Shown here piece after piece: positions 4,172 through 34,950 of a DNA stretch of 64,000 nt. The stretch's first letter is position 1. Every line of letters starts with the position of its first letter. The DNA lies in the NCBI RefSeq assembly GCF_008040105.1, contig NZ_VRMG01000005.1:558001-622000 (forward strand). Direction: 5' to 3'. Made by a program: the position numbers and the translations under genes. This stretch comes from Lacisediminihabitans profunda. Its GTDB lineage: Bacteria; Actinomycetota; Actinomycetes; Actinomycetales; Microbacteriaceae. Under the pieces are notes generated by a model. It was not told the DNA's origin and searched no databases. It was given only the letters and a program-made list of their open reading frames with translations.

Positions 4172-5569
4172 ATGAGCTCCGCGGCACACTCCAGGTCGGA
4201 CTGGGCGTCTTCCGTTCGCGAGATCACGTCGAGCCGCATCCTGCTCTGGATCGCGTTCGTGCTCGTGCACCTCTGGCTCGGCCTCGTCAACCTGAACGGG
4301 CCGGGCCTGCCCCTCGGCGACGTGAGCTACGTCTACAAGTTCTGGACCGACCAGGCCATCGTCTCCCACTACTGGGTCGGCATCGACGGCTCCTGGGTCT
4401 ATCCGATAGTCGCGCTCGTGCCCATGCTGATGGCGCGCGCCTTCGGGCCCGAGCTCTACTCGAGCACCTGGCTCAGCCTCGTGATGGTGCTCGACGCCGT
4501 CGCCCTCGCGTTCATCGTCGGCTGGGGCAGGCAGCGGCGCCACGTCGACGTCGGCTGGTGGTGGGTGCTGTTCCTGCTGCTGCTCGGCCCCATCGCCCTC
4601 GGCCGCATCGACTCGATCACCGTGCCGCTCGCCATCGTGGGCGTGCTCCAGGTGGCGAAGCGGCCGGGTGCGGCCGCGGCGCTGCTCACGATCGCCACCT
4701 GGATCAAGGTCTGGCCGGCCGCGTTGCTCGCGGCGATCGTCATCGCGGTCAGGTCCCGGCTGCGCGTGGTCGCGGTGAGCGTGGCCACGAGTGTCGCCAT
4801 CGTCCTGGCCGCCCTCGCCCTCGGCGCAGGATCCAACGTGTTCAGCTTCGTCGGACAGCAGACCGCCCGGGGCCTGCAGGTCGAGGCGCCGGTCTCCACG
4901 ATCTGGCTCTGGGCGGGCTGGGCGCATGTGCCGAACGTCTACGTCTACTATGACCGGGCCCTGCTCACCTGGCAGGTGCGCGGGCCGGGGGTCTCCACCG
5001 CAAGCGGGCTGATGACCCCGCTGCTCGCCCTCGTGCTGGTCGGGGTCGTCATCGTGGCGGTGCTCGCCGTGCGCCGAGGGGCCCGCGCCCTCGAGGTGCT
5101 CCCCGCCCTCTCCCTCGCGTTCGTCTGTGCGTGCATCGCAGTGAACAAGGTCGGCTCGCCGCAGTACATCACCTGGCTCGCCGTTCCCGTCATCCTCGGC
5201 CTCGTCACCCGCCGGGAGGGGCACGGCCGCTCGTTCCGGATTCCCGCGACAGTGGTGCTCGTGCTCGCCGTGCTCACCCAGGCGATCTACCCCTACCTGT
5301 ACGGCTACCTGATAGGCCTCAACGCCGTCATGCTCCTGGTGTTGAGCGCGCGCAACCTGCTCGTCTTCGTGCTGTTGGGCTGGTCGGTCGTGGCCGTCTG
5401 GCGCGCGCCCGGACTGACGGACGAGCAGTGGTTCACCGGCTCGGCCTCCGAGGCGGCCCTGCCGCGCGCGACCTGGCCCTTCCCGGCCGGCGGGAAGCGC
5501 GCCGATGGTCACCGTACGGCCGAGGGTGACACGCTGGACCCGGAGACCCTGACCGACCGAACACCCTGA
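4172..5569 (+). CDS. Polytopic membrane protein, GT87/DUF2029-like glycosyltransferase
   Basis: A 465-residue integral membrane protein with about 10-12 hydrophobic segments. An early luminal loop contains LPLGDVSYVYKFW; in GT-C/GT87 mannosyltransferases an acidic residue at this place is catalytic. Further along are LGPIALGRIDS, TWIKVWPA (the K-x-W-P motif common in GT87 members) and GSPQYITWLA. GT87 enzymes use polyprenyl-phosphate sugars to extend lipoglycans (PimE is one example). Assignment to the GT-C type is by topology and motifs, and donor and acceptor are unknown. The last ~50 residues are cytoplasmic and end within a 17-bp tandem duplication. Confidence 0.7.
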   Translation: MSSAAHSRSDWASSVREITSSRILLWIAFVLVHLWLGLVNLNGPGLPLGDVSYVYKFWTDQAIVSHYWVGIDGSWVYPIVALVPMLMARAFGPELYSSTWLSLVMVLDAVALAFIVGWGRQRRHVDVGWWWVLFLLLLGPIALGRIDSITVPLAIVGVLQVAKRPGAAAALLTIATWIKVWPAALLAAIVIAVRSRLRVVAVSVATSVAIVLAALALGAGSNVFSFVGQQTARGLQVEAPVSTIWLWAGWAHVPNVYVYYDRALLTWQVRGPGVSTASGLMTPLLALVLVGVVIVAVLAVRRGARALEVLPALSLAFVCACIAVNKVGSPQYITWLAVPVILGLVTRREGHGRSFRIPATVVLVLAVLTQAIYPYLYGYLIGLNAVMLLVLSARNLLVFVLLGWSVVAVWRAPGLTDEQWFTGSASEAALPRATWPFPAGGKRADGHRTAEGDTLDPETLTDRTP

Positions 5570-15616: not shown

Positions 15617-17126
15617 GACCGCCGCGGCCGGGGCTCCGGCCCTGGCCGTCGCCCCCCGCCGAGCCTGGCAGGCCCTCGGCGTGCTCCTGATCGGGATGTT
15701 CATGTCCCTGCTCGACGCCACGATCGTGAACGTGGCCCTGCCGACCATCCGCACGAGCCTCGACGCGAACGAGGCGACCCTGTCCTGGATCATCTCCGGG
15801 TACGCCCTCGCCTTCGGACTCGTGCTCATCCCGGCCGGCCGCCTCGGCGACCGGTTCGGCCACAAGTGGATCTTCTTCACCGGTCTCGCCCTCTTCACCG
15901 CCGCGAGCCTCGCCTGCGGCCTCGCGCAGGACAGCACCCAACTCGTCGTCGCGCGGGTGATCCAGGGCCTCGCCGGGGGAATCTACCTCCCGGCCGTGAC
16001 GGCGTTCATCCAGTTGCTCTTCCCGCCGCGAGTCCGAGGCAAGGCCTTCGCCATCATGGGCGCGGTCATCGGTGTCTCCTCGGCTCTCGGGCCGATCGTC
16101 GGCGGCCTGCTCATCCAGGCCTTCGGCGAGAAGGAGGGCTGGCGATACGTCTTCGACGTCAACCTGCCGATCGGCATCATCGCCCTTGTCGCGGCCGCCT
16201 TCCTGCTGCCGCGGGGCGCCGCGGGCACGAGGAGCTCCGGCGGGGGCGACTGGATCGGCCTGCTGCTTCTCGCCGGCGGCCTAGTGGCCATCCTCGTGCC
16301 GCTCATCGAGGGGCAGACCGTGGGCTGGAAGCCCTGGACGTTCATCTCGCTCGGTGGTGGAGTGGCGCTGATCGTGCTCTTCGCGTTCTGGGAGGTCTTC
16401 TACACGAAACGGGGCAAGAGCCCCCTCGTACCACCGCACCTCTACAGCCACCCGGCGTTCACGGGAGGCACCATCCTCGCCCTCGTCTATTTCGCGGCCT
16501 TCACGAGCATCTTCTTCTCCATCTCGATCCTCTGGCAGTCCGGGCTCGGGCACACGGCGCTCGAGTCTGGCCTCGTCTCCATCCCGTTCGCGATCGGCAG
16601 CATCGTCGGCGCCTCGCAGAGCAACCGGTTCGCGGCACGGCTCGGCCGCACGGTGCTGGTGATCGGGGTCGGGATGCTGACCGTCGGCCTGGCCGCGGTG
16701 TGGATCATCCTGCTCACCGTTCCGGCCGCGGATCTGACCAACTGGGCGCTGCTGCTGCCGCTCCTCGTCGCCGGGGTGGGAAGCGGCCTGTTCATCGCGC
16801 CGAACGCGCAGTTCATCGTCGCGACGGTCGACCCGCAGGAGGCCGGCGCCGCGAGCGGAGTGATCGGCACGATGCAGCGGCTCGGCAGCGCGATCGGGAT
16901 CGCGGTGATCGGCAGCGTCTTGTTCGGCACCCTCGTGATCGAGAAGCCCACCTTCACGGGTCGTCCGAGCGCCGCCGAGATCAAGGCCGCCGTGGCCCAG
17001 AACGTGGCCATCGGTTTCACCGCCAGCGCCGCCTCGGCGATCGCGCTGAGTGCGCTGTTCGCCCTCGTCGCGTTCAGTCTCGTCTTCGCCCTGCCGAAGC
17101 GGGTCAACCGCGGCTTCGCGGAGTAG
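15609..17126 (+). CDS. MFS drug exporter, DHA2 (EmrB/QacA) family
   Basis: A 505-residue, probably 14-helix major facilitator. Features include LLDATIVNVALPTIRTSLDA in helix 1 (the D-x-T-I-V-N-V-A-L-P motif of the DHA2 group), SWIISGYALAFG, motif A GRLGDRFGHKWIF and motif C-like IGVSSALGPIVGGLL. It is a proton-coupled multidrug or small-molecule exporter; the substrate is unknown. It is translationally coupled to the PadR regulator by an 8-bp overlap. Confidence 0.9.
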   Translation: MSETAAAGAPALAVAPRRAWQALGVLLIGMFMSLLDATIVNVALPTIRTSLDANEATLSWIISGYALAFGLVLIPAGRLGDRFGHKWIFFTGLALFTAASLACGLAQDSTQLVVARVIQGLAGGIYLPAVTAFIQLLFPPRVRGKAFAIMGAVIGVSSALGPIVGGLLIQAFGEKEGWRYVFDVNLPIGIIALVAAAFLLPRGAAGTRSSGGGDWIGLLLLAGGLVAILVPLIEGQTVGWKPWTFISLGGGVALIVLFAFWEVFYTKRGKSPLVPPHLYSHPAFTGGTILALVYFAAFTSIFFSISILWQSGLGHTALESGLVSIPFAIGSIVGASQSNRFAARLGRTVLVIGVGMLTVGLAAVWIILLTVPAADLTNWALLLPLLVAGVGSGLFIAPNAQFIVATVDPQEAGAASGVIGTMQRLGSAIGIAVIGSVLFGTLVIEKPTFTGRPSAAEIKAAVAQNVAIGFTASAASAIALSALFALVAFSLVFALPKRVNRGFAE

Positions 17127-22665: not shown

Positions 22666-22977
22666 ATGTCTCTCATCGTCGTCGCCACCCTCACCCCCGC
22701 GCCAGGACGCACCCAGGACGTGCTCGACGCGTTCAGCGCCGTGTCGCCCCTCGTGCACGAGGAGCCCGGTTGCGAGCTCTACGCCGCGCACACCGACGGC
22801 AACCTCGTGATCATGGTCGAGCGCTGGCGTAGCCGGGAGGACCTGGACGCGCACGCGGCCGGCGCGGCTCTCGTGGAGTTGAACCGGCTCAACGAGGGGG
22901 CGCTCGCCGCGGAGACCGTCGTGCACGTGCTGCGCAACGTGCCGATGGGCGACCCGGTGAAGGGCACGATTCAGTAG
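22666..22977 (+). CDS. ABM (antibiotic biosynthesis monooxygenase) domain protein
   Basis: A 103-residue dimeric alpha/beta-barrel protein of the ABM/YgiN group. It begins SLIVVATLTPAPGRTQDVLD and has the conserved HEEPGCELYAAHTDG and the aromatic VERWRSREDLDAH. Members are quinol monooxygenases or heme-degrading-like proteins; many have unknown substrates. The ATG follows GGAG by 7 nt. Its 3' end overlaps that of the convergent mftG by 7 bp. Confidence 0.8.
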   Translation: MSLIVVATLTPAPGRTQDVLDAFSAVSPLVHEEPGCELYAAHTDGNLVIMVERWRSREDLDAHAAGAALVELNRLNEGALAAETVVHVLRNVPMGDPVKGTIQ

Positions 22978-24647
22978 TCGGCGCCCCGCCGCATGACGTG
23001 GGCGATCAGTTCGCCCACGAGCATCGCGGTCGCCGCCGGTCCACGCACGGGGGTGTCGGGCAGGATCGAGGTGTCGGCCACCCGCAGTCCGTCGACGCCG
23101 TGCACCCGTCCGTACTGGTCGACGACAGCACCCGGGTCGTCCGCGCCGCCGAACCTCGCGCTTCCGCACAGGTGGATGGCGGTGCCGAGGTGGCCGAGCG
23201 CCCACGCGTCCAGGCGGGAGTCGTCGTCGAGCGTCGAGTCGTCGAGCTCGGAGAGCCGGCGGAAGAGGCGGGAGAACGCCTCGGTGCGCAGCAGCGCGAC
23301 GGCCGTGCGGATGGCCTGTCGCATCCGGCGGCGGTCACTCTCGGTCGAGAGGTAGTGGTAGTCGATCCGCGGAGGAACGGCGGGGTCGGCCGACTCGAGG
23401 CTGATCCGGCCGCGCGAGGTCTCGGCCTGCACGGCGACGAGCATCGCCAGGTCGCCCTGGTGCGCGACCTGTTCGGCGAACCGTCGGAGTGAGATGCCGC
23501 GCAACGCCGAGACCGATCGCCGGGGGTGGCGAAGCAGGGTGCCGAGAGCGCTCGCCGTCGCCGCGCGGCGCCCGGTGAGCAGGTAGCCCATGGGCTTGAT
23601 GAGGGGCAGGATCTCCAGGTCGCCTGGGCCGCCGACCCCGGCCGTTCCCGATTCGGCCGTCCCGGTCGTGGCCGAGTCGAAGTTGAGGCAGGACGCCATC
23701 GACTGGCTCGTGCGGTAGTCCACGACGTGGCGCCGCGGCTGCCAAAGCACCGGGATATCCGGGTGATCGCTGAATCCGTCGCCGACCCCGGGCAGATCCT
23801 TCACCACGGTGATCCCGAGCTCCTCGAGGTCGACCCGCGGGCCGATTCCCGAGACGAGGAGCAGGTGGGGAGACTTGACTCCTCCCGCACACAGCACCAC
23901 CTCGCGGGCGCGGATCACCGAGATCACGCCGGCGGTCTGCACCTCGACCCCCACCGCCCGGCTGCCCTCGAACACGACCCGCCGCACGCAGCTGTCTCCG
24001 CGCACGGTGAGGTTTCCGCGCCCCCGGACCGGATTGAGGTAGGCGATGCCGGTGTTGACGCGAATCCCGTCCTCCACGTTCATCGGAAGCGGGCCGACCC
24101 CCGGGTCGCCCTGGTCGTTCTTGTCTGGTTCGCGCGCGAAACCGAGCTCCGCGGCGGCGGCCGCGAAGGCGACGGTCACCGGATGGTCCTGCGCCGGCCG
24201 AGTCACGGGAATCGGTCCAGACCCCCCGTGCACCGCGGTCTCGCCGAACTGCCGGTCGGCCTCGATGCGGCGGTAGAACGGCAGCACTCGGTCCCAGGTC
24301 CACTCGTCGTTTCCGTCGGCCGACCAGCGGTCGAAGTCCTGGCGCCTGGCGCGGATGAAGTACGCCCCGTTGATCGTCGTCGAGCCGCCGAGGATGCGCC
24401 CGCGCGCGATCGAATAGGGAAGGCCGGGCGTGAGGTGCCCGAGGAACGACCAGTTGGCCGGATGTCCGGGAGCGGCCCCACGCACGGTTCCGGAGTCGAG
24501 GAGGTCCGCCGGAAATTCCTCGGTGCTGCCGGGCACCGGGCCGGCCTCGAGCAGCAGCACGGTGCGCCCGGGGTCCTCGGTCAGCCGCGCGGCGAGCGGC
24601 GCCCCGGCGGCGCCCGCCCCCACGACGATCACGTCGAAGGGCGTCAT
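22971..24647 (-). CDS. mftG: Mycofactocin-associated GMC oxidoreductase MftG
   Basis: A 558-residue FAD enzyme of the glucose-methanol-choline oxidoreductase family. The N-terminal Rossmann loop is VIVVGAGAAGAPLAARL, followed by the FAD motif LGGSTTINGAYFIRAR, GGVKSPHLLLVSGIG, and the C-terminal substrate domain HLCGSARFGG with catalytic His and VDGLRVADTSILP. In mycobacteria MftG is reported to re-oxidise mycofactocinol by passing electrons to the respiratory chain. Here it is coupled to mftR by an ATGA overlap and points away from mftA, so it is the outer-left gene of the mycofactocin locus. Confidence 0.9.
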   Translation of the reverse strand: MTPFDVIVVGAGAAGAPLAARLTEDPGRTVLLLEAGPVPGSTEEFPADLLDSGTVRGAAPGHPANWSFLGHLTPGLPYSIARGRILGGSTTINGAYFIRARRQDFDRWSADGNDEWTWDRVLPFYRRIEADRQFGETAVHGGSGPIPVTRPAQDHPVTVAFAAAAAELGFAREPDKNDQGDPGVGPLPMNVEDGIRVNTGIAYLNPVRGRGNLTVRGDSCVRRVVFEGSRAVGVEVQTAGVISVIRAREVVLCAGGVKSPHLLLVSGIGPRVDLEELGITVVKDLPGVGDGFSDHPDIPVLWQPRRHVVDYRTSQSMASCLNFDSATTGTAESGTAGVGGPGDLEILPLIKPMGYLLTGRRAATASALGTLLRHPRRSVSALRGISLRRFAEQVAHQGDLAMLVAVQAETSRGRISLESADPAVPPRIDYHYLSTESDRRRMRQAIRTAVALLRTEAFSRLFRRLSELDDSTLDDDSRLDAWALGHLGTAIHLCGSARFGGADDPGAVVDQYGRVHGVDGLRVADTSILPDTPVRGPAATAMLVGELIAHVMRRGADY

Positions 24648-25225
24648 CCGTGCTCGCGGAGCCGGAAGGCGCTGTCGAGGGTGCGGAACGCGGCCGCGAG
24701 CAGCTCCAGAAGGTCCGCATCCTCCGTCTTGAGCCATTGCTCGTAGGCCGACAGGGAGACGGCGAGGAAGGCCCAGGCGATGGCCTGCGGTTCGAGGCTG
24801 TCTTCCGGCACCTGGAGCCGGTCGGCCACGAACTCGGCGACGACCTGTCGCCAGGAGGCGTACCGCAGAGTCGAGTGGGCGAGGAGCGAGGGTACGTGCA
24901 ACAGCAGCTCCATGCGCTCACGGTGGTACGGGATCTCCGAGGCCGGTAGTCGGTTGAACTCGATCACCGAGGCGCAGAGCGCCTCGACGAGCGGCAGGTC
25001 GCTCGGCAGACTGGCGAGGTGCTCCCTCATGCGCTCGAGCAGTGTCTCGAAGTCGCCCCACGGCAGGTCGTTCTTCGACGGGAAGTAGCGGAAGAAGGTG
25101 CGTCGACCGATTCCGGCGGCCGCCACGATGTCGTCCACCGTCGTGCGGTCGAACCCGCGCACGCGGAAGAGCTCGAGGGCCACATGGCTCAGTTCGGCGT
25201 GGGAGGTGGACGGTTGCCTGCCCAT
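24644..25225 (-). CDS. mftR: Mycofactocin system TetR-family regulator MftR
   Basis: A 193-residue TetR protein. The N-terminal HTH reads ELSHVALELFRVRGFDRTTV, then AAAGIGRRTFFRYFPSKNDL, a form closely typical of MftR. Downstream are LPASEIPYHRERMELLLHVP and a helical ligand domain ending in RTLDSAFRLREHG. MftR is described as an acyl-CoA-responsive repressor of the mft operon. The ATG at 25225 is chosen by alignment to the family's short N-terminus; it lacks a strong ribosome site, and TTG 25261 or ATG 25288 are alternatives. The stop overlaps mftG (ATGA). The 136-bp divergent region to mftA should hold its operator. Confidence 0.88.
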   Translation of the reverse strand: MGRQPSTSHAELSHVALELFRVRGFDRTTVDDIVAAAGIGRRTFFRYFPSKNDLPWGDFETLLERMREHLASLPSDLPLVEALCASVIEFNRLPASEIPYHRERMELLLHVPSLLAHSTLRYASWRQVVAEFVADRLQVPEDSLEPQAIAWAFLAVSLSAYEQWLKTEDADLLELLAAAFRTLDSAFRLREHG

Positions 25226-25275
25226 GCGTGAGGTGGTCTTCAGTTCGCCCGTCGTACTCAACTTCCGCTCACCCC

Positions 25276-25304
25276 TTCCATTCGGCACTCGGTGTCATTA
25301 GTAT
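25276..25304 (+). promoter_or_regulatory. Candidate promoter of mftA
   Basis: TTCCAT (25276-25281) and TAGTAT (25299-25304) are separated by 17 bp in the most A/T-rich part of the mftR-mftA gap. This gives a leader of about 50 nt before mftA. An MftR operator is expected nearby, but no clear palindrome stands out. Confidence 0.3.
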
Positions 25305-25361
25305 CATCCACATCACAGGAATTCGCCGTCGTCGTCGGTTTTCTACCATGAGGAGCATCCC

Positions 25362-25493
25362 ATGAGTGTCAGTGAGAATAAGGATTTTGGCGCACGGACT
25401 GACGCAAATGATGCGTCGGATGCCGGGGCCGTGATCGAGGCCGATTCGCTCGTCGAAGAGGTATCGATCGACGGCATGTGCGGCGTCTACTAA
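25362..25493 (+). CDS. mftA: Mycofactocin precursor peptide MftA
   Basis: A 43-residue ribosomal peptide ending VEEVSIDGMCGVY, the hallmark C-terminus of mycofactocin precursors. MftC acts on the final Val-Tyr: it oxidatively decarboxylates the Tyr and crosslinks it to the Val. MftE then cleaves and MftD deaminates to give the redox core. The acidic leader (residues 1-30; ADSLVEE) is the part recognised by MftB. The ATG follows AGGAG by 6 nt. It lies 9 bp before mftB and is first in the operon. Confidence 0.96.
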   Translation: MSVSENKDFGARTDANDASDAGAVIEADSLVEEVSIDGMCGVY

Positions 25494-25502
25494 GTCCGTG
25501 AC

Positions 25503-25778
25503 ATGTCGTCGATCGATCTCGACACCGCGTGGGACCTCCATCCGAAGGTCTCGGTAAGGCCGGAACCGTTCGGCGCACTGCTCTACCACTTCGGTACCAG
25601 ACGCCTCTCGTTCCTCAAGGACCGCACCCTGCTGAGCGTGGTGCAGGGGCTGGCCGCCGCCCCCACCGTGCGCGCCGCGTGCGCCGCGGCCGGCATCGAC
25701 GATCACGACCTTCCGCGCTACCACCGCGCACTCGGCGTGCTCGCCGACTCCTCCATGGTCATCGAGAGGCACCAATGA
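25503..25778 (+). CDS. mftB: Mycofactocin precursor-binding chaperone MftB (RRE/PqqD-like)
   Basis: A 91-residue winged-helix RiPP recognition element related to PqqD. It starts with DTAWDLHPKVSVRPEPFGAL, continues with LYHFGTRRLSFLKDRTLLSV, and has the helical tail RYHRALGVLADSSMVIE. It binds the MftA leader and presents it to MftC. It begins 9 bp after mftA and overlaps mftC by ATGA, as expected for stoichiometric partners. The length matches the family (~90-110). Confidence 0.94.
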   Translation: MSSIDLDTAWDLHPKVSVRPEPFGALLYHFGTRRLSFLKDRTLLSVVQGLAAAPTVRAACAAAGIDDHDLPRYHRALGVLADSSMVIERHQ

Positions 25779-27004
25779 CGCTGCTCCAGCCCGCCACCCG
25801 GCCGACCCGCCTGGTCGACCTGTTCGAATATGGGCTCGATGCCCCGATCTGCCTCACCTGGGAGCTCACCTACGCGTGCAACCTCTCCTGCGTGCACTGC
25901 CTCTCGAGTTCCGGGCGTCGCGATCCGCGCGAGCTCACGACGGCCGAGGCCAAGGCCGTGATCGACGAGCTCCAGCGGATGCAGGTGTTCTACGTGAACA
26001 TCGGCGGCGGGGAGCCAACGGTGCGGCCCGACTTCTGGGAGCTCGTCGACTACGCCACGGACCACCAGGTGGGGGTGAAGTTCTCGACAAACGGAGTGAA
26101 GATCTCCCCGGAGGTCGCGCGCCGGCTGACGGCGAGCGACTACGTGGACGTGCAGATCTCGCTTGACGGGGCGACCGCCGAGGTGAACGACCACGTGCGC
26201 GGCCCCGGCTCCTACGACACGGCCCTGCGCGCCATGCAGAACCTCTTCGACGCCGGGTTCGAGGGGTTCAAGATCTCGGTCGTCTGCACGAGGCAGAACA
26301 TCTGTCAGCTCGACGAATTCAAGGCCATCGCCGATCGCTTCAAGGCTCAGCTTCGCCTGACCAGGCTGCGGCCGTCCGGGCGGGGCGCCGATGTGTGGGA
26401 CGAACTGCATCCGCTGCCGGAGCAGCAGCGCGAACTCTACGACTGGCTGGTGCTGCACGGCGAGGAGGTGCTCACCGGAGACTCGTTCTTCCATCTCTCG
26501 GCGTTCGGCGGCGCCCTCCCCGGGCTCAACCTCTGCGGGGCGGGCCGGGTGGTGTGCCTGATCGACCCGATCGGCGACGTGTACGCGTGTCCCTTCGCGA
26601 TCCACGAGGAGTTCCTCGCGGGCAACGTGCGCTCGCCGGGCGGCTTCCAGACGGTCTGGAAGACCTCCGAGCTGTTCCTGCGGCTCCGTAATCCGCAGAA
26701 CGGCGGCGCATGCAGCTCATGCGCCTTCTTCGACAGCTGCAAGGGCGGCTGCATGGCCGCCAAGTTCTTCACCGGATTGCCCATCGACGGGCCGGACCCC
26801 GAGTGCGTGCAGGGCTACGGTGAGCAACTGCTGAAGAACCGCCCGCAGAAGGGCGGGCTTCCCCAGCCGTCTGACGACCACTCCCATCGCACGACGAGGG
26901 CGCCTCGGCCGGTTCCGATCACCCTCTCGGTGCGGCGGGTGGACCGACCTCCGGTGAGCGCGTGCGCCGAAGATCCGCTCGCCGGGTTCGAACCCGTCCG
27001 GTAG
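25775..27004 (+). CDS. mftC: Mycofactocin radical SAM maturase MftC
   Basis: A 409-residue SPASM-type radical SAM enzyme. The [4Fe-4S]/SAM triad is Cys35, Cys39 and Cys42 in YACNLSCVHC, with the glycine-rich NIGGGEPTVRPDF near residue 85. The C-terminal SPASM domain has CSSCAFFDSCKGGCMAAKF plus upstream Cys residues (LNLCGAGRVVC, YACPF) for auxiliary clusters. It decarboxylates the MftA C-terminal Tyr and forms the Val-Tyr C-C bond. A ~50-residue Pro/Arg-rich tail after NRPQKGG is longer than usual and looks disordered. The ATG overlaps the mftB stop. Confidence 0.95.
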   Translation: MTLLQPATRPTRLVDLFEYGLDAPICLTWELTYACNLSCVHCLSSSGRRDPRELTTAEAKAVIDELQRMQVFYVNIGGGEPTVRPDFWELVDYATDHQVGVKFSTNGVKISPEVARRLTASDYVDVQISLDGATAEVNDHVRGPGSYDTALRAMQNLFDAGFEGFKISVVCTRQNICQLDEFKAIADRFKAQLRLTRLRPSGRGADVWDELHPLPEQQRELYDWLVLHGEEVLTGDSFFHLSAFGGALPGLNLCGAGRVVCLIDPIGDVYACPFAIHEEFLAGNVRSPGGFQTVWKTSELFLRLRNPQNGGACSSCAFFDSCKGGCMAAKFFTGLPIDGPDPECVQGYGEQLLKNRPQKGGLPQPSDDHSHRTTRAPRPVPITLSVRRVDRPPVSACAEDPLAGFEPVR

Positions 27005-27060
27005 CGGGCCGCGACCGACCAGAACCTCACAAATCCACAACCCGAACAAAGGAGCAGGCA

Positions 27061-27876
27061 ATGGGGCGTGTAGAAGGAAAAGTGGCATTCATCACCGGTG
27101 CGGCGAGGGGACAGGGCCGCAGTCATGCGGTGCGACTCGCGCAAGAGGGAGCCGACATCATCGCGATCGACATCTGTGAAGCCGTCCCGGGAGTGGGCTA
27201 CCCCGCCGCGACCGAGGAAGACCTCGCCGAGACGGTGCGGCAGGTCGAGGCTCTCGACCGACGCATCATCGCCACCAAGGCCGACGTGCGAGATCGCGCG
27301 GGGCTCAAGGCGGCCATCGACACGGGCGTCGCCGAACTCGGCCACCTCGACATCGTGCTGGGCAACGCCGGGATCTGCATCCTCGGGCCGTGGGACGAGA
27401 TCACCCCGGAGGTCTACCAGACCACCATCGACATCAACCTCACGGGCAACTGGAACCTCATCCAGCTGACCGCGCCGCACCTCATCGCGGCCGGCGGGGG
27501 ATCGATCGTGCTCACCAGTTCCGCCGCGGGGCTCAAGGGTCTGCCCTTCCTCACGCCCTATGTCACCTCCAAGCACGGGGTTGTGGGCCTCATGCGCGCC
27601 TTCGCCTCGGAGCTTGCCGAGTACAACATCCGGGTGAACACGGTGCACCCCACCGGCGTCGACACGCCGATGGGAGCCGACCCCAGCATGGGAGAGAAGT
27701 TCGGCGAATGGTTCGCGGCCCATCCGAAGCTCGGAGGAATGATGGTCAACATGTTGCCGGTCGAGGTCACGCAGCCGGTGGACATCAGCAACGCGGTGCT
27801 CTTTCTCGCCTCCGACGAGGCGCGGTACATCACGTCACTCGCGATGGCGGTCGACGCCGGAAACACCCAGTACTGA
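27061..27876 (+). CDS. Mycofactocin-coupled SDR dehydrogenase 1
   Basis: A 271-residue short-chain dehydrogenase of the mycofactocin-coupled subfamily. It has the signature start [20 protein letters not shown], the extra segment [20 protein letters not shown] between strand 2 and the DVRD strand, NAGICILG, catalytic Ser in SSAAGLKG and YVTSK. That insertion is linked in this family to a non-exchangeable NAD, which is why the enzymes need mycofactocin as external electron acceptor. The likely substrate is an alcohol or terpenoid-type secondary alcohol; unknown here. The ATG follows AAAGGAG. It is the most divergent of three tandem copies. Confidence 0.9.
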
Positions 27877-27921
27877 CCCGACAAGAAGACAAGAGGACGA
27901 CAGAACGAAGGAGGACACGCA

Positions 27922-28752
27922 ATGGGGCGGGTAGAGGGAAAGGTTGCATTCATCACGGGCGCCGCGCGGGGCCAGGGGCGCAGCCACGCGCTGCGGCTCG
28001 CGCAGGAGGGCGCCGACATCATCGCGGTGGACATCTGCGCGCAGATGGACTCCGTGCCGTACGCGATGTCCACGCCGGACGACCTCGCGGAGACGGTGAA
28101 GCAGGTCGAGGCCCTCGACCGGCGGATCGTCGCCAGCGAGGCCGACGTTCGGGATTATGGCGCGCTCAAGTCGGCGCTCGATGCGGGGGTCGCCCAGCTG
28201 GGCCGCCTCGACATCGTGAGCGCGAACGCGGGAATCGCGAGCTTCGGGATGCTCGAGGACATGAGCGAGGAGACCTGGCAGGAAATGCTCGACGTGAACC
28301 TCACGGGCGTGTGGCACGCCGCCAAGGCGGCGATCCCGCACCTCAAGGCGGGCGGCCGAGGCGGGTCGATCATCCTCACGAGTTCGGCGGCCGGGCTCAT
28401 GGCCTACCCGGGGGCCGGCCACTACGTGTCAGCGAAGCACGGGGTGGTGGGTCTCATGCGCACGCTCGCGCTCGAGCTCGCGCCGGACATGATCCGGGTC
28501 AACAGCCTGCATCCCACCCAGGTGGACACCCCGATGATCATGAACGAGGGCGTGTACAAGCTCTTCCGGCCCGACCTCGAACACCCCACCAAGGCCGACT
28601 TCGAGCCGGCCTCGCAGGCGATGAACGCCCTGCCCATCCCCTGGGTGGAGGCCGTCGACATCTCGAACGCCCTGCTGTTCCTGGCGTCGGACGAGGCGAG
28701 GTACATCACCGGGGTCACCCTGCCCGTGGACGCGGGCGCCGTCATCAAGTAG
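27922..28752 (+). CDS. Mycofactocin-coupled SDR dehydrogenase 2
   Basis: A 276-residue mycofactocin-coupled SDR with the same architecture as its neighbours: [16 protein letters not shown], the insert [30 protein letters not shown], catalytic Ser/Tyr/Lys in [19 protein letters not shown], and TQVDTPM. Bases 27946-28058 are identical, 113 of 113, to 28821-28933 in SDR 3, while the rest of the genes differ widely. That suggests gene conversion or a recent patchy duplication. The ATG follows AAGGAGG. Substrate unknown. Confidence 0.9.
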
Positions 28753-28796
28753 AGAGCAACAACCCGAGCAGTTCAGAGGTTCAAAGGAGAACGGAC

Positions 28797-29630
28797 ATGG
28801 GAAGAGTAGAGGGAAAGGTCGCATTCATCACGGGCGCCGCGCGGGGCCAGGGGCGCAGCCACGCGCTGCGGCTCGCGCAGGAGGGCGCCGACATCATCGC
28901 GGTGGACATCTGCGCGCAGATGGACTCCGTGCCATACGCGATGGCGACGCCGGATGACCTGGCCGAGACCGTGAAGCAGGTGGAGGCCCTCGACCGGCGC
29001 ATCGTCGCCGTGCAGGCCGACGTGCGGGACTACGGCGCGCTCAAGTCGGCGCTGGATGCGGGGGTGGCCCAGCTGGGCCGGCTCGACATCGTCTCGGCCA
29101 ACGCGGGAATCTTCAGCTTCGGCACGTTGGAGGAGCTCTCCGACGAGCAGTGGAAGGACATGCTCGACGTCAACCTCACCGGGGTCTGGCACACCGCGAA
29201 GGCGGCGATCCCGCATCTCCGGGCGGCCGGCGGAGGCTCGATGATCCTCACCAGTTCCGCCGCCGGGCTCATGGGGATGGGCAACATCGGGCACTACGTC
29301 TCGGCGAAGCACGGCGTGGTCGGACTGATGCGCACCCTGGCCCTCGAGCTGGCGCCGGACATGATCCGGGTGAACAGCATCCATCCGACCACGGTGAACA
29401 CCGACATGATCCAGAACGCGGCGGCCTACGAGCTGTTCGCCTCCGACCTGCCGGTGGCCGAGCGCACGCGCGAGGTGCTCGCGCCTCGGTTCCAGTCGCT
29501 CAACGCGCTGCCGATCCCGTGGGTCGAGCCGGTGGACATCTCCAACGCGGTGTTGTGGCTCGCGTCCGACGAGGCACGCTACGTCACGGGGGTGACGCTG
29601 CCGGTCGACGCCGGCGTGCTCGTCAAGTGA
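28797..29630 (+). CDS. Mycofactocin-coupled SDR dehydrogenase 3
   Basis: A 277-residue mycofactocin-coupled [19 protein letters not shown], the insert [49 protein letters not shown] with the catalytic Ser/Tyr/Lys, and a substrate lid around [16 protein letters not shown] that differs from copy 2. The ATG at 28797 has AAAGGAG 9 nt upstream. Its stop overlaps the MoxR ATPase start as GTGA, tying the chaperone-like module to this dehydrogenase translationally. Confidence 0.9.
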
Positions 29631-30532
29631 CCGACATCTCGGACACGCGCGCCAGGGTCGCCTCGCACATCGTCGGCCGCGAGCGTGAGCTCGAACTCAC
29701 GCTCGCGGCCGTCGCGGCCGGGCGGGAGATCGTGCTCGAGGGGCCTCCAGGCACGAGCAAGACCACCATGCTGAAGGCGATCACCCAGGAGTGGGGCATC
29801 CCTCTGCTCTTCGTCGAGGGCAACGCCGACCTCACGCCGGCAAAGCTGGTGGGGCACCACAACCCGGCGCGAGTGCTTCGCGAGGACTACAGCGCGGACA
29901 ACTTCGTGGCCGGGCCACTGGTCGAGGCGATGCAGGAGGGCGGTTTCCTCTACATCGAGGAGTTCAACCGGGCACCGGAGGACACCCTCAACACCCTGCT
30001 CGCGGCGATGGCCGACCGTTCCATCGCGGTGCCGAGGGTCGGCATCATCGTGGCGCGCCCCACCTTCCGGGTGATCGCCTCGATGAACCCGTACGACAAC
30101 GTCGGAACCACCCGGCTGTCGACGAGCGTGCACGACCGGCTCAACCGGCTGTCGATCGGCTACCAGGACGAGGCGGGCGAGCGCGGGATCGTGGCGCTGC
30201 GCACGAGCGTCTCCGGAACGCTCGGCGAACGTTTCATCCGCGACGCCGTCGCGGTGACGCGAGCCACCAGAACCCATCGGGACCTGCGCCAGGGCAGCAG
30301 CGTGCGCGGAGCCATCGACTGCGTGCTCATCGCCCGCGAGCTCGCCGCGCTGCGAGGCGTGACGTCTCCGGACGACGACGAATACGCCGCCCTGTTCTAC
30401 GACGCGATGGTGGTATCGCTCTCCGGCCGGATCCACCTCGACGAGGCGGCGGAGACCACGCCGGAGCGGGTGCTGCGGGAGATCTGGGAAGACCACTTCG
30501 TGCTGCAGCCGGCGATCGCCGAACCGGGCTGA
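29627..30532 (+). CDS. MoxR-family AAA+ ATPase
   Basis: A 301-residue AAA+ ATPase of the MoxR/CoxD-like class. Walker A is [11 protein letters not shown] (residues ~38-48), Walker B with the MoxR signature is [19 protein letters not shown], and sensor 1 lies in [12 protein letters not shown]. MoxR proteins act with a VWA-domain partner to activate or insert cofactor or metal into specific enzymes. The GTG start overlaps the stop of SDR 3, and the next gene encodes the VWA partner. Candidate clients are the adjacent dehydrogenases or an unlinked alcohol dehydrogenase; this is inference. Confidence 0.88.
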
Positions 30533-30634
30533 AGGGATGTCGAGGCCGACTCGCCGGTGACACGCGAGCCCGCGGTGAGGCGGCAGACCCGCCCGCTGCG
30601 GCGCACACCGAAGCAGCTAGAGGAGGAGCCCACC

Positions 30635-31510
30635 GTGTTCGAACCAGTGGCAGGCACCGGCGGCATGGCACTGCGCGCCGAGGGTTCGGGGCGCGACCGC
30701 GCCCGGCCGATGCCGGCGGGCTCGGCGCCCGGCATCACCGACGAGCTCGCCACCCTCGTGGCGGCCGAGGTCGACACGGTGGAGGCGGACCCCACGGTGC
30801 GCGCGAGGGCCAGGCAGATCGCGGCGCGGCTCGCCGTGCGCCGCCCCCGCGCCGACGCCTCGGCGCATCGCGGATCGGGCACTCTCGCGAGCGTTCCCTA
30901 CCGCGGAGGGTCGGACGACATCGATCTGGACCGAACGATCGAGGTGCTCGCCGAGCGACCGCTGCCGGAAGACGAGGACATCATCGTACGGGAGCGCGTG
31001 CGCACGAAGCGCTCGGTCGTGCTCGCGGTCGACGTGTCGGGGTCGATGAAGGGGGAGCGCGTGCACACCGCCGCCGCGACCGTCGGGGCGCTCTCCGCCG
31101 AGTTGCAGCACGATTCCCTCGCGGTGATCGCCTTCTGGTCGGACGCGGCGATCCTCCTGCGCCTCGGCCAGCCGGTGAAGCCGATGGAACTGCTCGACAC
31201 CATGCTGCGCATCCCGGCGCGCGGGCTCACCAACGTGGCGTTCCCGCTCGAGCTCGCCGCCCAACAGCTGGCACGGGTGCCCGCCCGCGACGCGCGGGTG
31301 CTCCTGCTGTCCGACTGTGTGCACAACGCCGGCCCTGATCCGCGGCAGTTCGCCGCGCGCCTGCCGCGCCTCGACATCCTGCTCGACGTGAGCGGCGAGA
31401 AGGACATCGAGCTCGGCCGGGAGCTCGCGAGGGCCGGCCACGGCACGCTGCGCCTGATCCGCACCCATCGCGACATCGCCCCGGCGCTCAGCGCCTTATT
31501 CAGCGCGTGA
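30635..31510 (+). CDS. VWA-domain protein, MoxR partner (CoxE-like)
   Basis: A 291-residue protein with an N-terminal helical region (~1-120) and a C-terminal von Willebrand A domain starting RSVVLAVDVSGSMKGERV, where D-x-S-x-S is the metal-ion-dependent adhesion site; later GLTNVAFPLELAAQQLA supplies the MIDAS Thr and VLLLSDCVHN the Asp. The GTG at 30635 is preferred because AGGAGGAG lies 6 nt upstream. An in-frame GTG at 30557 would add 26 basic residues and overlaps a 7-codon ORF at 30537. With the MoxR ATPase it forms a MoxR/VWA activation pair embedded in the mft operon. Confidence 0.82.
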   Translation: MFEPVAGTGGMALRAEGSGRDRARPMPAGSAPGITDELATLVAAEVDTVEADPTVRARARQIAARLAVRRPRADASAHRGSGTLASVPYRGGSDDIDLDRTIEVLAERPLPEDEDIIVRERVRTKRSVVLAVDVSGSMKGERVHTAAATVGALSAELQHDSLAVIAFWSDAAILLRLGQPVKPMELLDTMLRIPARGLTNVAFPLELAAQQLARVPARDARVLLLSDCVHNAGPDPRQFAARLPRLDILLDVSGEKDIELGRELARAGHGTLRLIRTHRDIAPALSALFSA

Positions 31511-31541
31511 TGGCGCTATCCACGAAGAGAGAGGTTACCCC

Positions 31542-32747
31542 GTGAGCAGGAATGGCTGGTTCGAAACGGTCGCCGAGGCGCAGAGACGTGCCAAGCGGCG
31601 CTTGCCGAGGTCGGTCTACGGCGCGCTCCTCGCCGGGTCGGAGAAGGGGGTCACCTACAGAGACAACACCGCGGCGTTCTCGGAGCTGGGGCTCGCCCCG
31701 CACGTGGCTGGCCATCACGCGGTGCGGGACCTCAGCACCACGGTGATGGGGGAGTCCATCTCCCTTCCGGTGCTGATCTCCCCGACCGGCGTGCAGGCGG
31801 TGCACCCCGATGGCGAGGTCGCGGTCGCGAGGGCGGCTGCCAACCGGGGAACCATCATGGGGCTCAGCTCGTACGCGAGCAAGCCGGTGGAGGAGGTCGT
31901 CGCGGCGAACCCGCAGACCTTCTTCCAGCTCTACTGGTCCGGCTCCCGGGACGCCATCGTCCGCCGGATGGACCGCGCAAGGGCCGCGGGTGCGCGGGGG
32001 CTGATCGTGACCCTCGACTGGTCCTTCTCCAACGGTCGGGACTGGGGGAGCCCGGCGATTCCGGAACGAATGACCCTCAAGGCCATGGCGACCCTCTCGC
32101 CGCAGGTGATCACCCGCCCGCAGTGGCTCCTGGCCTACGCGAGAACGCTCCGCATCCCCGACCTGACGACGCCCAACCTGACCGAACCCGGCCAGGACGC
32201 CCCCACCTTCTTCGGGGCGTACGGCGAATGGATGCAGACCCCACCGGCCACCTGGGCGGACGTCGCCTGGCTGCGCGAACAGTGGGGCGGACCGTTCATG
32301 CTCAAGGGGATCTCGCGCATCGACGACGCGAAGCGGGCGGTGGACGCCGGGGTGACCGCGATCTCGGTCTCCAACCACGGCGGCAACAACCTGGACTCCA
32401 CTCCCGCCACCATCCGGATGCTGCCCTCGGTGGCGGAGGCGGTCGGCGGTCAGGTGGAGATCGTGCTCGACGGCGGGATCCGCCGGGGGAGCGACGTCGC
32501 GAAGGCCCTCGCCCTCGGCGCCCGGGCGGTGATGATCGGCCGGGCGTACCTCTGGGGGCTCGCGGCGAACGGCCAGGCCGGGGTGGAGAACGTGCTCGAC
32601 ATCCTGCGCGGCGGCCTCGACTCGGCAGTGCTCGGGCTCGGCCATGCCTCGATCCACGAACTCGGTCCTGACGACCTCGTGATTCCGCCGGGCTTCACCC
32701 GCACGCTCGGCGCGGCCGCTGCGGTGAAGAATCGACCGCTGCGGTGA
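31542..32747 (+). CDS. mftD: Mycofactocin biosynthesis FMN-dependent deaminase MftD
   Basis: A 401-residue protein of the FMN-dependent alpha-hydroxy-acid dehydrogenase fold. Features include LLAGSEKGVTYRDN, LPVLISPTGVQAVHPDGEVA, catalytic-type His in SVSNHGGNNLDSTPATIRML and phosphate-binding LDGGIRRGSDVAKALALGA. MftD oxidatively deaminates the AHDP intermediate released by MftE to pre-mycofactocin, the redox-active form. The GTG follows an AGAGAGAGG site. The C-terminus runs into a 17-bp direct repeat whose second copy supplies the stop in another frame. Confidence 0.94.
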   Translation: MSRNGWFETVAEAQRRAKRRLPRSVYGALLAGSEKGVTYRDNTAAFSELGLAPHVAGHHAVRDLSTTVMGESISLPVLISPTGVQAVHPDGEVAVARAAANRGTIMGLSSYASKPVEEVVAANPQTFFQLYWSGSRDAIVRRMDRARAAGARGLIVTLDWSFSNGRDWGSPAIPERMTLKAMATLSPQVITRPQWLLAYARTLRIPDLTTPNLTEPGQDAPTFFGAYGEWMQTPPATWADVAWLREQWGGPFMLKGISRIDDAKRAVDAGVTAISVSNHGGNNLDSTPATIRMLPSVAEAVGGQVEIVLDGGIRRGSDVAKALALGARAVMIGRAYLWGLAANGQAGVENVLDILRGGLDSAVLGLGHASIHELGPDDLVIPPGFTRTLGAAAAVKNRPLR

Positions 32748-32753
32748 AGAATG
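32716..32753 (+). repeat. 17-bp direct repeat at the mftD 3' end
   Basis: CCGCTGCGGTGAAGAAT occurs at 32716-32732 and 32737-32753. In the second copy, read in a different frame, TGA becomes the mftD stop, so the duplication appears to have set the current C-terminus. Confidence 0.8.
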
Positions 32754-32788
32754 GGTAGCGCCGTCGTTGACGCGTCGAGGGGAGTGCC

Positions 32789-33505
32789 GTGACTAATCGG
32801 TTGGCCGAGCGGGCGTGGGTCGCCGTGCCCGAGGGTGCGCTCGTGCTGGTGCCCGTCGGGTCGACGGAGCAGCACGGACCGCATCTTCCCCTCGACACCG
32901 ACAGCCGGATCGCGACGGCCGTCGCGGAGGAGGCCGCCCGGCTCCATCGCGGGGCGGGCCCGGTGCTCGTCGCGCCGGTACTGGCCTACGCGGCGAGCGG
33001 CGAGCACCAGTCCTTCCCCGGCACGATGTCGATCGGCCACGAGGCCCTCGAGGTCGTGCTGACCGAACTCGTGCGGTCGCTCTCCCTCTGGGCCCGACGC
33101 ATCGTGATCGTCAACGGGCACGGCGGCAACGTCTCGACCCTCGCGCGCACCGTCCCCCGACTCGTCGCCGAGGGGCGCGACGTGGCCTGGCTGCCGTGCG
33201 CGGCCGAGGGCGATGCCCATGCGGGCCGCACCGAGACTTCCCTCATGCTGCACCTCGATCCCGGAGCCGTGGACCTGTCCGCCGCCGTGGCCGGCAACGT
33301 CGTGCCCGTCGCCGAGCTCATGGCGTCTCTGACCGCGCACGGCGTGCGGTTCGTCTCCCCCTCGGGGATCCTCGGAGACCCGACGGGCGCGAGCGCCGAC
33401 GAGGGACGCGCCATCCTCGAGGCGATGGCGGAGGATGCCGCGCGCAGGATCGACGCGAACAGTGCGGACGCCCAGGGCCGCCTTCGCGACCCGGCGCCCC
33501 CGTGA
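32789..33505 (+). CDS. mftE: Mycofactocin precursor peptidase MftE (creatininase family)
   Basis: A 238-residue metal-dependent amidohydrolase of the creatininase family. The metal ligands are in VGSTEQHGPHLPLDTDSRI (Glu/His/Asp), IVNGHGGN (His) and DAHAGRTETSLML (Glu). MftE cleaves the modified MftA to release AHDP, the Val-Tyr-derived crosslinked core. The GTG follows GAGGGGAG by 4-5 nt. The stop overlaps the mftF start as GTGA. Confidence 0.94.
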   Translation: MTNRLAERAWVAVPEGALVLVPVGSTEQHGPHLPLDTDSRIATAVAEEAARLHRGAGPVLVAPVLAYAASGEHQSFPGTMSIGHEALEVVLTELVRSLSLWARRIVIVNGHGGNVSTLARTVPRLVAEGRDVAWLPCAAEGDAHAGRTETSLMLHLDPGAVDLSAAVAGNVVPVAELMASLTAHGVRFVSPSGILGDPTGASADEGRAILEAMAEDAARRIDANSADAQGRLRDPAPP

Positions 33506-34950
33506 CCCAGCCGGCCGCCCCGCCCGATCTCCCCCTTCCCCCCGGATTCACGGTGCGGCTCGGGCGCACTGTGCGGTCCACGGACGGGGGGCGCGCGCTT
33601 ATCGGCGGGGCCCCCACCCGGGTGCTCTACCTCACCCCCGCCGCGGTGGGGATGATCGAGGATCGGGTGCTGACCGTGACGAGTGCCGCGACGGCCGCCC
33701 TGGCCGACCGCCTGCTCGAGACGGGGATTGCCGACCCGGTCGTCGACCGACTGCCGAGGGCCGATGAGAGTCGGCTGACGGTGGTCGTGCCGGTGCACGG
33801 GCGGCCCGCCGCCCTCGACCGGCTGCTCGCGAGCCTCGGGCCGAACGCGCGGGTGGTGGTCGTCGACGACTGCTCGCCGGCTCCCGAACCGATAGCTGCG
33901 GTGGTCGTCGCCCACGGTGCCGAACTCGTGCGCCTCGAGGCCAACCTGGGGCCGGCCGGCGCCCGCAACGCCGGGCTGGCGCGGGTGACCACGGAGTTCG
34001 TGGCCTTCATCGACGACGACGTTGTCGTCGAGCCGGGCGCCCTCTCCACCATGCTCGGCCACTTCGCCGACCCGCGGGTGGCGCTCGTCGGACCCCGCAT
34101 CCTCGGCACCACCGATGAGGAGCACTCCAACTGGATCGGGCGCTACGAGCAGGCGCGGTCGTCGCTCGACCTGGGCCGCCACCCCGGCATCGTGCGGCCA
34201 CGCGCCCCCGTGTCCTGGCTGCCCGGCGCCTGCCTGGTCGCCCGGGTCTCGGCCATCGGCGAGGGCTTCGCTCCCGGACTGCGGGTGGCGGAAGACGTGG
34301 ACCTGGTCTGGCGGCTCGCCGAGCTGGGCTGGCGTGTGCGCTTCGAGCCGGCGGCGAGCGTGCGGCACGAGCACCGGGTGACGCTCGTCGACTGGCTGTC
34401 TCGAAAGGCGTTCTACGGAACGGGCGCGCAGGCGCTCGCCGCGCGCCATCCCCGGAGCATCGCCCCGGTGGTGCTCGCCCCGTGGAGCGTCGGCGTGATC
34501 CTGGCCCTCCTCGCCCAGAGGCGCTGGTCGATCCCGGTTGCCCTGGGCATCTCGGCCGTCGCTGCGGCGCGCATCGCCCGCAGGCTCGGCCGCAGCGAGC
34601 ACCCGGCACGGGACGGCGTGTGGCTCGTCTCGAACGGCGTGGTCGCGGCGCTGGCGCAGGGGGCCGCCCTGCTCCTGCGGCACTGGTGGCCGCTCGCCGC
34701 GGTGGGCTGCCTCGTCTCGCGCCGGATGCGCCGCGCGGTGCTGGTGGCCGCGATCGCGGACGCCGCGCTCGAGTACCGCCGCACTGACGCGCGGCTCGAG
34801 GCGCGGATCGACCCCCTGCGGTTCGGCCTGGCCCGGCGTCTCGACGATCTGGCCTACGGCGCCGGGGTGTGGCTCGGGGCGATCAGGGGCCGGTCGTTCG
34901 CGCCTCTCCGCCCCGACATCCGGGTTCGGGACTCACGCTCCGAGGGCTGA
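33502..34950 (+). CDS. mftF: Mycofactocin glycosyltransferase MftF
   Basis: A 482-residue GT2-family glycosyltransferase. The catalytic domain (about 95-310) shows LTVVVPVHGRPAALDRLLAS, VVDDCSP, LGPAGARNAGLA, the D-x-D motif FIDDDVVVEPGAL and GLRVAEDVDLVWRLAELGW. The C-terminal third is hydrophobic, with 2-4 membrane helices, then a basic tail. MftF adds beta-1,4-glucan chains to pre-mycofactocin. The N-terminal ~90 residues (LPPGFTVRLGRTVRSTDGG) are the usual MftF cap. Last gene of the rightward mft operon; the convergent TetR gene begins only 10 bp further. Confidence 0.93.
   Translation: MTQPAAPPDLPLPPGFTVRLGRTVRSTDGGRALIGGAPTRVLYLTPAAVGMIEDRVLTVTSAATAALADRLLETGIADPVVDRLPRADESRLTVVVPVHGRPAALDRLLASLGPNARVVVVDDCSPAPEPIAAVVVAHGAELVRLEANLGPAGARNAGLARVTTEFVAFIDDDVVVEPGALSTMLGHFADPRVALVGPRILGTTDEEHSNWIGRYEQARSSLDLGRHPGIVRPRAPVSWLPGACLVARVSAIGEGFAPGLRVAEDVDLVWRLAELGWRVRFEPAASVRHEHRVTLVDWLSRKAFYGTGAQALAARHPRSIAPVVLAPWSVGVILALLAQRRWSIPVALGISAVAAARIARRLGRSEHPARDGVWLVSNGVVAALAQGAALLLRHWWPLAAVGCLVSRRMRRAVLVAAIADAALEYRRTDARLEARIDPLRFGLARRLDDLAYGAGVWLGAIRGRSFAPLRPDIRVRDSRSEG

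Follow-up and report, generated by a model that had tools for sequence, protein, structure and literature searches.

The window analysed here, 64,000 nucleotides of a Lacisediminihabitans profunda contig (NZ_VRMG01000005.1, positions 558,001 to 622,000), carries a biosynthesis locus for the redox cofactor mycofactocin in which a MoxR-class AAA+ ATPase and a von Willebrand factor A (VWA) domain protein are encoded behind three short-chain dehydrogenases/reductases (SDRs; Table 1). The locus has an mftA gene with the C-terminal motif IDGxCGVY, mftB and mftC, and mftD, mftE and mftF are present too; mft and SDR genes were called from NCBIfam matches above the curated cut-offs. These family matches bear out the gene order of an initial annotation (mftR and mftG divergent from mftA-B-C, then three SDRs, MoxR, VWA and mftD-E-F), and the GTGA overlap of SDR3 with MoxR that it described is real (29627-29630). 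That annotation overlooked that MoxR and VWA lie in the same reading frame, separated by a single TGA (30530-30532). The mft locus and its SDRs are ordinary; extraordinary are the close association of a single MoxR/VWA family with mycofactocin dehydrogenases and the apparent interchange, within that family, of stop codon readthrough, frameshifting, gene fusion and duplication.

The stop codon between MoxR and VWA was first examined in 80 pairs: the window, locus L036 and 78 of the named loci, a set that consists of the best 80 of at least 522 confirmed matches, with neighbours counted by tblastn. In 80/80 pairs the stop is TGA, the two proteins share a frame, and no further stop precedes the end of VWA or the contig edge. 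The flanking residues read PG*R-x-V-x-A-D-S-P (the asterisk marking UGA), 79/80 pairs have AGA or AGG as codon +1, and the base after TGA is A in 80/80 pairs versus 4/67 of the upstream SDR genes. Where two sequences differ by one base in a codon between +1 and +8, the difference is synonymous at a share of 0.72 in frame, while the two alternative frames give 0.29 and 0.09; for the last eight codons of MoxR the share is 82%. Linker lengths and start codons were compared in 74 of the 80 loci (six, in which the exact DxSGSM motif is absent or the contig is cut, were dropped), and the distance from TGA to DxSGSM takes 12 different lengths, from 147 to 179 codons, in frame throughout. On the MoxR tree, for which 104 of 137 MoxR-bearing stretches were kept after removal of near-copies, no change falls on any of the three TGA positions among 61 UGA rows; third positions change 14 to 28 times in the nine codons after TGA and 11 to 27 times in the six codons before it. 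Across all 137 stretches, some of them duplicates (L182, for example, is the window), VWA lies in frame behind the stop in 89, and 89/89 of these read TGAA. UGA followed by A is a context prone to misreading by tRNA-Trp in Escherichia coli, according to the accessible part of PMC5289835. The presence of UGA-A in 80/80 pairs, the lack of any other in-frame stop and the codon-level conservation after UGA strongly imply readthrough. A single recoded gene probably gives rise to both MoxR and VWA, and we hold it highly likely that recoding takes place.

Table 1. Features of the mycofactocin locus and its MoxR/VWA gene (positions in the window)
Feature	Coordinates	Strand	Evidence
mftG, GMC dehydrogenase re-oxidising mycofactocin	22971..24650	-	TIGR03970 448 bits, cut-off 387
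mftR, TetR-type regulator	24644..25246	-	TIGR03968 270 bits, cut-off 225
mftA, 43-aa precursor peptide, C-terminus IDGMCGVY	25362..25493	+	TIGR03969; translation
mftB	25503..25778	+	TIGR03967
mftC, radical SAM maturase	25775..27004	+	TIGR03962 647 bits
SDR1, mycofactocin-coupled dehydrogenase	27061..27876	+	TIGR03971 376 bits, cut-off 300
SDR2, mycofactocin-coupled dehydrogenase	27922..28752	+	TIGR03971 424 bits, cut-off 300
SDR3, mycofactocin-coupled dehydrogenase, directly upstream of MoxR	28797..29630	+	TIGR03971 422 bits, cut-off 300
MoxR AAA+ ATPase, predicted short product of recoded gene	29627..30532	+	Pfam AAA_5, AAA_3; Foldseek NorQ/CbbQ
Walker A of MoxR	29738..29767	+	Alignment of 58 relatives
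TGA then A, predicted readthrough site	30530..30532	+	In-frame stop, comparison with relatives
Predicted MoxR-VWA readthrough open reading frame, 627 aa counting the internal TGA as one residue	29627..31510	+	Single frame, one internal TGA
VWA part as called by the open reading frame finder; GTG start not conserved in relatives	30557..31510	+	VWA_2, VWA_CoxE
mftD	31542..32747	+	TIGR03966 710 bits
mftE	32789..33505	+	TIGR03964 306 bits
mftF	33502..34950	+	TIGR03965 441 bits

Some observations count against readthrough. The 61 UGA rows, together with three contig-cut rows, form one clade (support 100/97), which a pair with the heptamer TTTTTTC adjoins; because the UGA rows form a single clade, the conservation of UGA represents one history, and readthrough probably arose once in this clade and was then kept. 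No unusual, stimulating RNA structure was detected downstream of UGA. A canonical start lies at codon 3 in 8/74 loci and at codon 9 in 18 more, so that some separate synthesis of VWA is possible in those loci. These 26/74 loci with a canonical in-frame start within nine codons of UGA, among them the window with GTG at 30557, fit the alternative that there is no readthrough and that VWA is translated separately from weak or scattered starts by translational coupling, in the manner of NorQ/NorD-type subunits, as does the AAGR at the stop, which plausibly resembles a ribosome-binding site. We nevertheless find this alternative unlikely, as the first start lies at least 88 codons after UGA in 8/74 loci, codon 3 is GTC, which is no usual start, in 47/80, the substitutions in codons +1 to +8 follow the pattern of coding sequence, and the frame is maintained across the 12 linker lengths. 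A conserved VWA start codon was rejected, there being no alignment column with a canonical start in more than 50/74 loci; the best column lies inside the VWA domain, just ahead of its metal ion-dependent adhesion site (MIDAS) motif.

The invariance of UGA and the conservation of its flanks would also suit full decoding of UGA as an amino acid (selenocysteine, or a reassigned codon), with the fusion as sole product. This is extremely improbable: TGA serves as the terminal stop of further genes in these loci (41/67 SDRs, and 62/76 VWA parts having a stop), lone MoxR genes occur beside fusions, and L083 (fused) and L096 (frame disturbed), which have sense codons at the UGA site, have no Cys there. 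SelB was found above the cut-off in 0/12 UGA-carrying genomes, all 12 of which have weaker partial matches, and selenocysteine was rejected. The frame change in L096 lies inside the 3' part of MoxR and may be a sequence error or another site.

Relatives of the UGA pairs join or separate the two proteins differently. The MoxR tree contains an SDR-type group and an alcohol dehydrogenase (ADH)-type group, the latter including two exceptions with an SDR client (L076, L078). In an initial set of 17 pairs, ADH-type or related, the heptamer GGGAAAA occurs in register in 16/17, and VWA lies in the -1 frame in 16/17, namely those in which the VWA motif is seen. The remaining pair, L090, has GGGGGAA, as does L197, and this is not a standard slippery heptamer, which speaks against frameshifting in these two; the class sample described below adds GGGGGGA in ADH-type pairs. 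The SDR-type group includes three pairs (L194, L200 and L201, with an SDR directly upstream only in L194) in which TGA comes immediately after TTTTTTC, giving a T TTT TTC -1 slippery site that ends on the stop codon itself. In total, 29 stretches have a slippery heptamer in register, and in most a hairpin starts a few bases later. The mean z of the hairpin is -1.66 for GGGAAAA (19 stretches), -2.69 for GGGGGAA (2), -1.03 for GGGGGGA (5) and -0.11 for TTTTTTC (3), versus -0.21 for 87 control windows; the hairpin is thus supported for the G sites and not for TTTTTTC. The codon test does not discriminate over the first 10 codons past the -1 site (0.45, 0.42 and 0.35), because two frames overlap there. 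MoxR-VWA is a single open reading frame in L044, L054, L055, L083, L091 and L198; L087 and L089 have a lone MoxR gene followed by a complete MoxR-VWA fusion gene; and L088 is an open frame of 703 aa, though it was scored as frame 1 in the frame count of the 137 stretches. UGA readthrough, -1 sites, fusion and duplication appear to stand in for one another, which suggests that producing the AAA+ protein both alone and as AAA+-VWA matters to the machine.

The gene directly upstream of MoxR is as a rule a dehydrogenase. In a phylum sample of 295 genomes besides the window's own, a search for the MftC family yielded 45 mftC-positive genomes, and the loci of these and of three relatives (48 mft loci) were read. 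MoxR and VWA occur within about 10 kb in 16/48, with a dehydrogenase directly upstream in 16/16, comprising 13 zinc-dependent ADHs (Zn-ADHs) and 3 SDRs. At 12 further MoxR loci of mftC-positive genomes (L083, L086-L096), the gene directly upstream is again a dehydrogenase in 12/12 (8 Zn-ADHs and 4 SDRs), making 28/28 loci of the phylum sample and the window's genus; 9 of these 12 stretches show no match to mftA-F, and the mft genes that go with L083 are on its own contig, about 10 kb away. Among the named loci, an SDR of the TIGR03971 type is directly upstream of MoxR in 67/80, and VWA is downstream in 77/80, the other three stopping at the contig edge. All 65 SDRs scanned, SDR3 of the window and 64 of the 67 from named loci (three short ones were left out), match TIGR03971 at E <= 1e-60, and 14/14 scanned Zn-ADHs match TIGR03989, which we take to be one of Haft's three nicotinoprotein families, at the same threshold. 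The ADHs found beside MoxR are of the Zn type, no search having been made with an iron-ADH model. Genome G317 has one module of Zn-ADH, MoxR and VWA and another of three SDRs, MoxR and VWA, with a separate MoxR for each, and in both G109 and G264 MoxR is present in three copies, spread over two modules. In the window's genome (99% complete) there is no fourth TIGR03971 match at E <= 1e-60 beyond SDR1-3 and no TIGR03989 ADH above the cut-off; because these genome-wide searches gave none beyond them, the three SDRs of the operon are the only likely TIGR03971 or TIGR03989 clients seen in the organism.

In two Cryobacterium loci (L111, L170) a Zn-ADH-like gene lies upstream of the SDRs that precede MoxR, giving mixed client sets within one operon. 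Five Geodermatophilaceae loci (L150, L155, L156, L157 and L178) have UGA-A MoxR-VWA pairs with no adjoining SDR or ADH and no mft gene in the stretch.

MoxR also co-occurs with mycofactocin biosynthesis at the level of genomes. Profile A1, built from 17 MoxR proteins, divides the phylum sample by a clear gap: 24 genomes score at least 398 bits, four score 266-329, and the remainder no more than 167. All 24 carriers at or above 398 bits lie outside the window's class, and 24/24 are among the 45 mftC-positive genomes, whereas the four genomes of the middle tier (G100, G090, G312, G347) are all without mftC. In a sample of 392 other genomes of the class, profile A3 finds MoxR in 18, and 18/18 are among the 111 with mftC. 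The two samples overlap in some genomes (of family f22, for example) but in no MoxR carrier; the hypergeometric probability of the co-occurrence is 3e-23 for the phylum and 5e-11 for the class, treating as independent genomes that are not. The initial annotation had allowed that MoxR/VWA might stand beside mft genes here only, with no co-conservation; instead, every MoxR genome of the two samples carries mftC. Its view of MoxR/VWA as an unusual insertion between mftC and mftD likewise gives way, for the module follows dehydrogenases and often sits away from mft genes; an insertion found only here was rejected, the module recurring in the phylum sample and the named loci. Among the named loci, hosts of MoxR include members of the Microbacteriaceae, Micrococcaceae, Streptomycetaceae, Kineosporiaceae, Jiangellaceae, Geodermatophilaceae, Nocardiaceae and Gordoniaceae.

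In two middle-tier loci, L099 and L100, a MoxR-VWA fusion adjoins a 927-aa protein, which in L099 (1951-4734) is molybdenum-hydroxylase-like; the sister machines of the middle tier may serve molybdenum enzymes. Near the window, mftC is sporadic (3/59 other genomes, two of the same genus and one of the same family), a patchiness that suggests transfer or repeated loss. The MftC match at L082 of G264 is split into three parts that lie in different frames, the result of a broken gene or of sequence errors.

The association of MoxR with dehydrogenases and mycofactocin has its exceptions and limits. The 80 named loci are biased to window-like pairs because they are the best-scoring of at least 522 matches, and 13/80 have no SDR or Zn-ADH directly upstream of MoxR: L110 has mftC and L142 mftB in that place, L177 and L179 have what appears by eye to be an oxidoreductase-like open reading frame, and nine have nothing recognisable. 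In the class sample, with the window excluded, an SDR or Zn-ADH is directly upstream in 18/24 loci and missing there in six (L193, L195, L200, L201, L204 and L205). MoxR is absent from 21/45 mftC-positive genomes of the phylum sample and from 93/111 of the class sample, and is therefore not required for mycofactocin use in general.

Proximity to the SDRs could also reflect a common regulon, with MoxR/VWA maturing the biosynthetic enzyme MftC or MftD. The window and many other loci do have the module placed between mftC and mftD, 55/80 named loci have one or more of mftC, D, E and F within reach, and MoxR is seen only together with mftC in both samples. This explanation is nonetheless unlikely, as many modules are away from mft genes and still behind a dehydrogenase, no mft gene is listed for 16 of the 67 named loci with an SDR link (among them L103, on a 3.4-kb contig), the copy number of MoxR tracks dehydrogenase modules in G109, G264 and G317, and the 21 phylum-sample genomes just mentioned make do with mftC but no MoxR. 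We consider the dehydrogenase, judging from gene neighbourhoods and co-occurrence, quite likely to be the client of MoxR/VWA.

Zn-ADHs and SDRs have unrelated folds, and metal is used by the Zn-ADHs only, the SDRs being metal-free. What the candidate clients share is their connection to mycofactocin and a tight hold on nicotinamide adenine dinucleotide (NAD): three nicotinoprotein families were tied to mycofactocin by Haft (PMC3023750, in the part available), and mycofactocin SDRs hold NAD for which exchange was not seen, as the accessible text of PMC5264612 has it. SDR3 of the window matches ten PDB sequences at E <= 1e-40, the same ten entries that are listed in that text, and is predicted from homology to these structures to hold a buried, non-exchangeable NAD. 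With clients of unrelated folds, only one of which uses metal, and with NAD held by the SDRs, the machine likely acts in all cases on the NAD/mycofactocin side of the enzyme rather than inserting metal. Insertion of metal into the dehydrogenase, on the model of NorQD, which inserts iron into nitric oxide reductase (PMC13036017, accessible part), would accord with those clients that are Zn-ADHs. It is very improbable, with the same MoxR family standing behind SDRs, which need no metal, and with SDR clients even within the ADH-type MoxR clade. The proposal of the initial annotation that MoxR/VWA serves a mycofactocin-dependent dehydrogenase is therefore strengthened by co-occurrence and adjacency, whereas the clients, being either Zn-ADHs or metal-free SDRs, make metal insertion an unlikely common function.

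Both protein parts have intact motifs. MoxR has a MoxR-class AAA+ fold with Walker motifs according to Pfam, alignment and Foldseek; in its Walker A motif (residues 38-47), alignment A4 of 58 relatives shows no variation at 38-43, 45 and 47, almost none at 44, and a variable position 46. NorQ and CbbQ chains occupy Foldseek ranks 1-21 for the MoxR model, and the best PDB matches by sequence profile are midasin AAA+ domains (194 bits over several stretches). Membership of the GvpN or MadB families was rejected (81 bits versus a cut-off of 267, and 50 versus 475). The MIDAS of VWA is complete, with D-x-S-x-S, T and D invariant in sets of 16 and of 58 sequences and the codon of D469 at 31031. A model of the single chain (predicted local distance difference test 81, predicted template modelling score 0.50) leaves residues 302-320 and 354-384 of the linker disordered.

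Taken together, the evidence makes it fairly probable that MoxR/VWA is a dedicated AAA+ activase of mycofactocin-dependent dehydrogenases, a remodelling chaperone similar to NorQD and CbbQO, with MoxR and MoxR-VWA produced from one mRNA. Most ribosomes would terminate at the UGA at 30530, and a few would read through it, probably by means of tRNA-Trp, adding the VWA domain. MoxR would form the motor ring, in which a minority of subunits bear VWA, recoding being expected to yield such a ratio. The MIDAS site of VWA may grip the dehydrogenase, and ATP hydrolysis would then pull it open, so that the buried, non-exchangeable NAD(H) could be loaded, replaced or exposed to mycofactocin.

Whether this is the first AAA+ activase of nicotinoproteins, with an AAA+:VWA ratio set by UGA readthrough in a large actinomycete clade and by -1 frameshifting, fusion or duplication elsewhere, we judge to be evenly balanced. 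If so, it would be a bacterial case of readthrough and frameshifting substituting for each other on one protein pair, and would explain how non-exchangeable NAD enters these dehydrogenases or is renewed in them. With likely clients of two unrelated folds, one of them metal-free, a non-metal role of a MoxR/VWA pair would become testable; annotated moxR/vwa pairs may conceal recoded fusions, and SDRs or ADHs purified from these hosts may lack activity if the activase is absent. In the open-licence literature, subscription papers being outside the search, no work among the entries listed was found linking mycofactocin or nicotinoproteins to MoxR/VWA, or MoxR to recoding; one paper, on prophages of Mycobacterium chelonae, contains both terms, mycofactocin and MoxR.

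Elsewhere in the window, a small gene with an antibiotic biosynthesis monooxygenase (ABM) domain (22666-22977) is convergent with mftG. Two ARAGORN calls of tRNA-Ala (5369-5460, 92 bases; 15710-15800, 91 bases) are long for tRNA-Ala and may be false or odd.

The system resembles and departs from several others. Its locus is like that of mycobacteria in having mftA-F, MftR, MftG and TIGR03971 SDRs, but in family f22, which we guess to be mycobacterial, MoxR reaches 398 bits in 0/11 mftC-positive genomes of the phylum sample, while G566 of the class sample does have MoxR. The GvpN and MadB ATPase families of NCBIfam have a related AAA+ domain. CbbQ/CbbO, the Rubisco activase, is a MoxR/VWA pair that remodels an enzyme with a tight ligand; CbbQ is among the top folds for the present MoxR, the client is another one, and we know of no recoding in CbbQ/CbbO. 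NorQ/NorD is alike in combining a MoxR-class AAA+ protein with a VWA partner, an intact MIDAS being present here and NorQ chains heading the Foldseek list; it differs in having separate genes and a membrane metalloenzyme as client, whereas here VWA is fused or apparently recoded onto MoxR and the likely client is a nicotinoprotein, and its sequence similarity to the present MoxR is remote (about 71 bits by profile). The accessible part of PMC13036017 names CbbQO a close homologue of NorQD, describes how the VWA protein NorD inserts a finger into the ring pore and, it is proposed, twists the client open, and notes that midasin joins AAA+ and VWA domains in one chain. Midasin (Rea1/Mdn1) is, however, a giant eukaryotic motor of ribosome assembly.

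For the production of an AAA+ protein alone and an AAA+-VWA protein from one gene, the frameshifted chelatase gene chlD is the known precedent by analogy; ChlD carries a VWA domain. In magnesium and cobalt chelatases, one gene (fs-chlD) gives an AAA+ protein alone and a longer AAA+ subunit by programmed frameshifting, as set out in the available portions of PMC9227772 and PMC5009743. These are chelatase subunits of another family, and those portions speak of frameshifting only, unlike the candidate readthrough, -1 sites, fusion and duplication seen here. Retroviral gag-pol, as treated in the accessible text of PMC5009743, likewise gives a short and a fused product by readthrough or by -1 frameshifting according to lineage, in a virus rather than, as appears to be the case here, in a bacterial enzyme activator.

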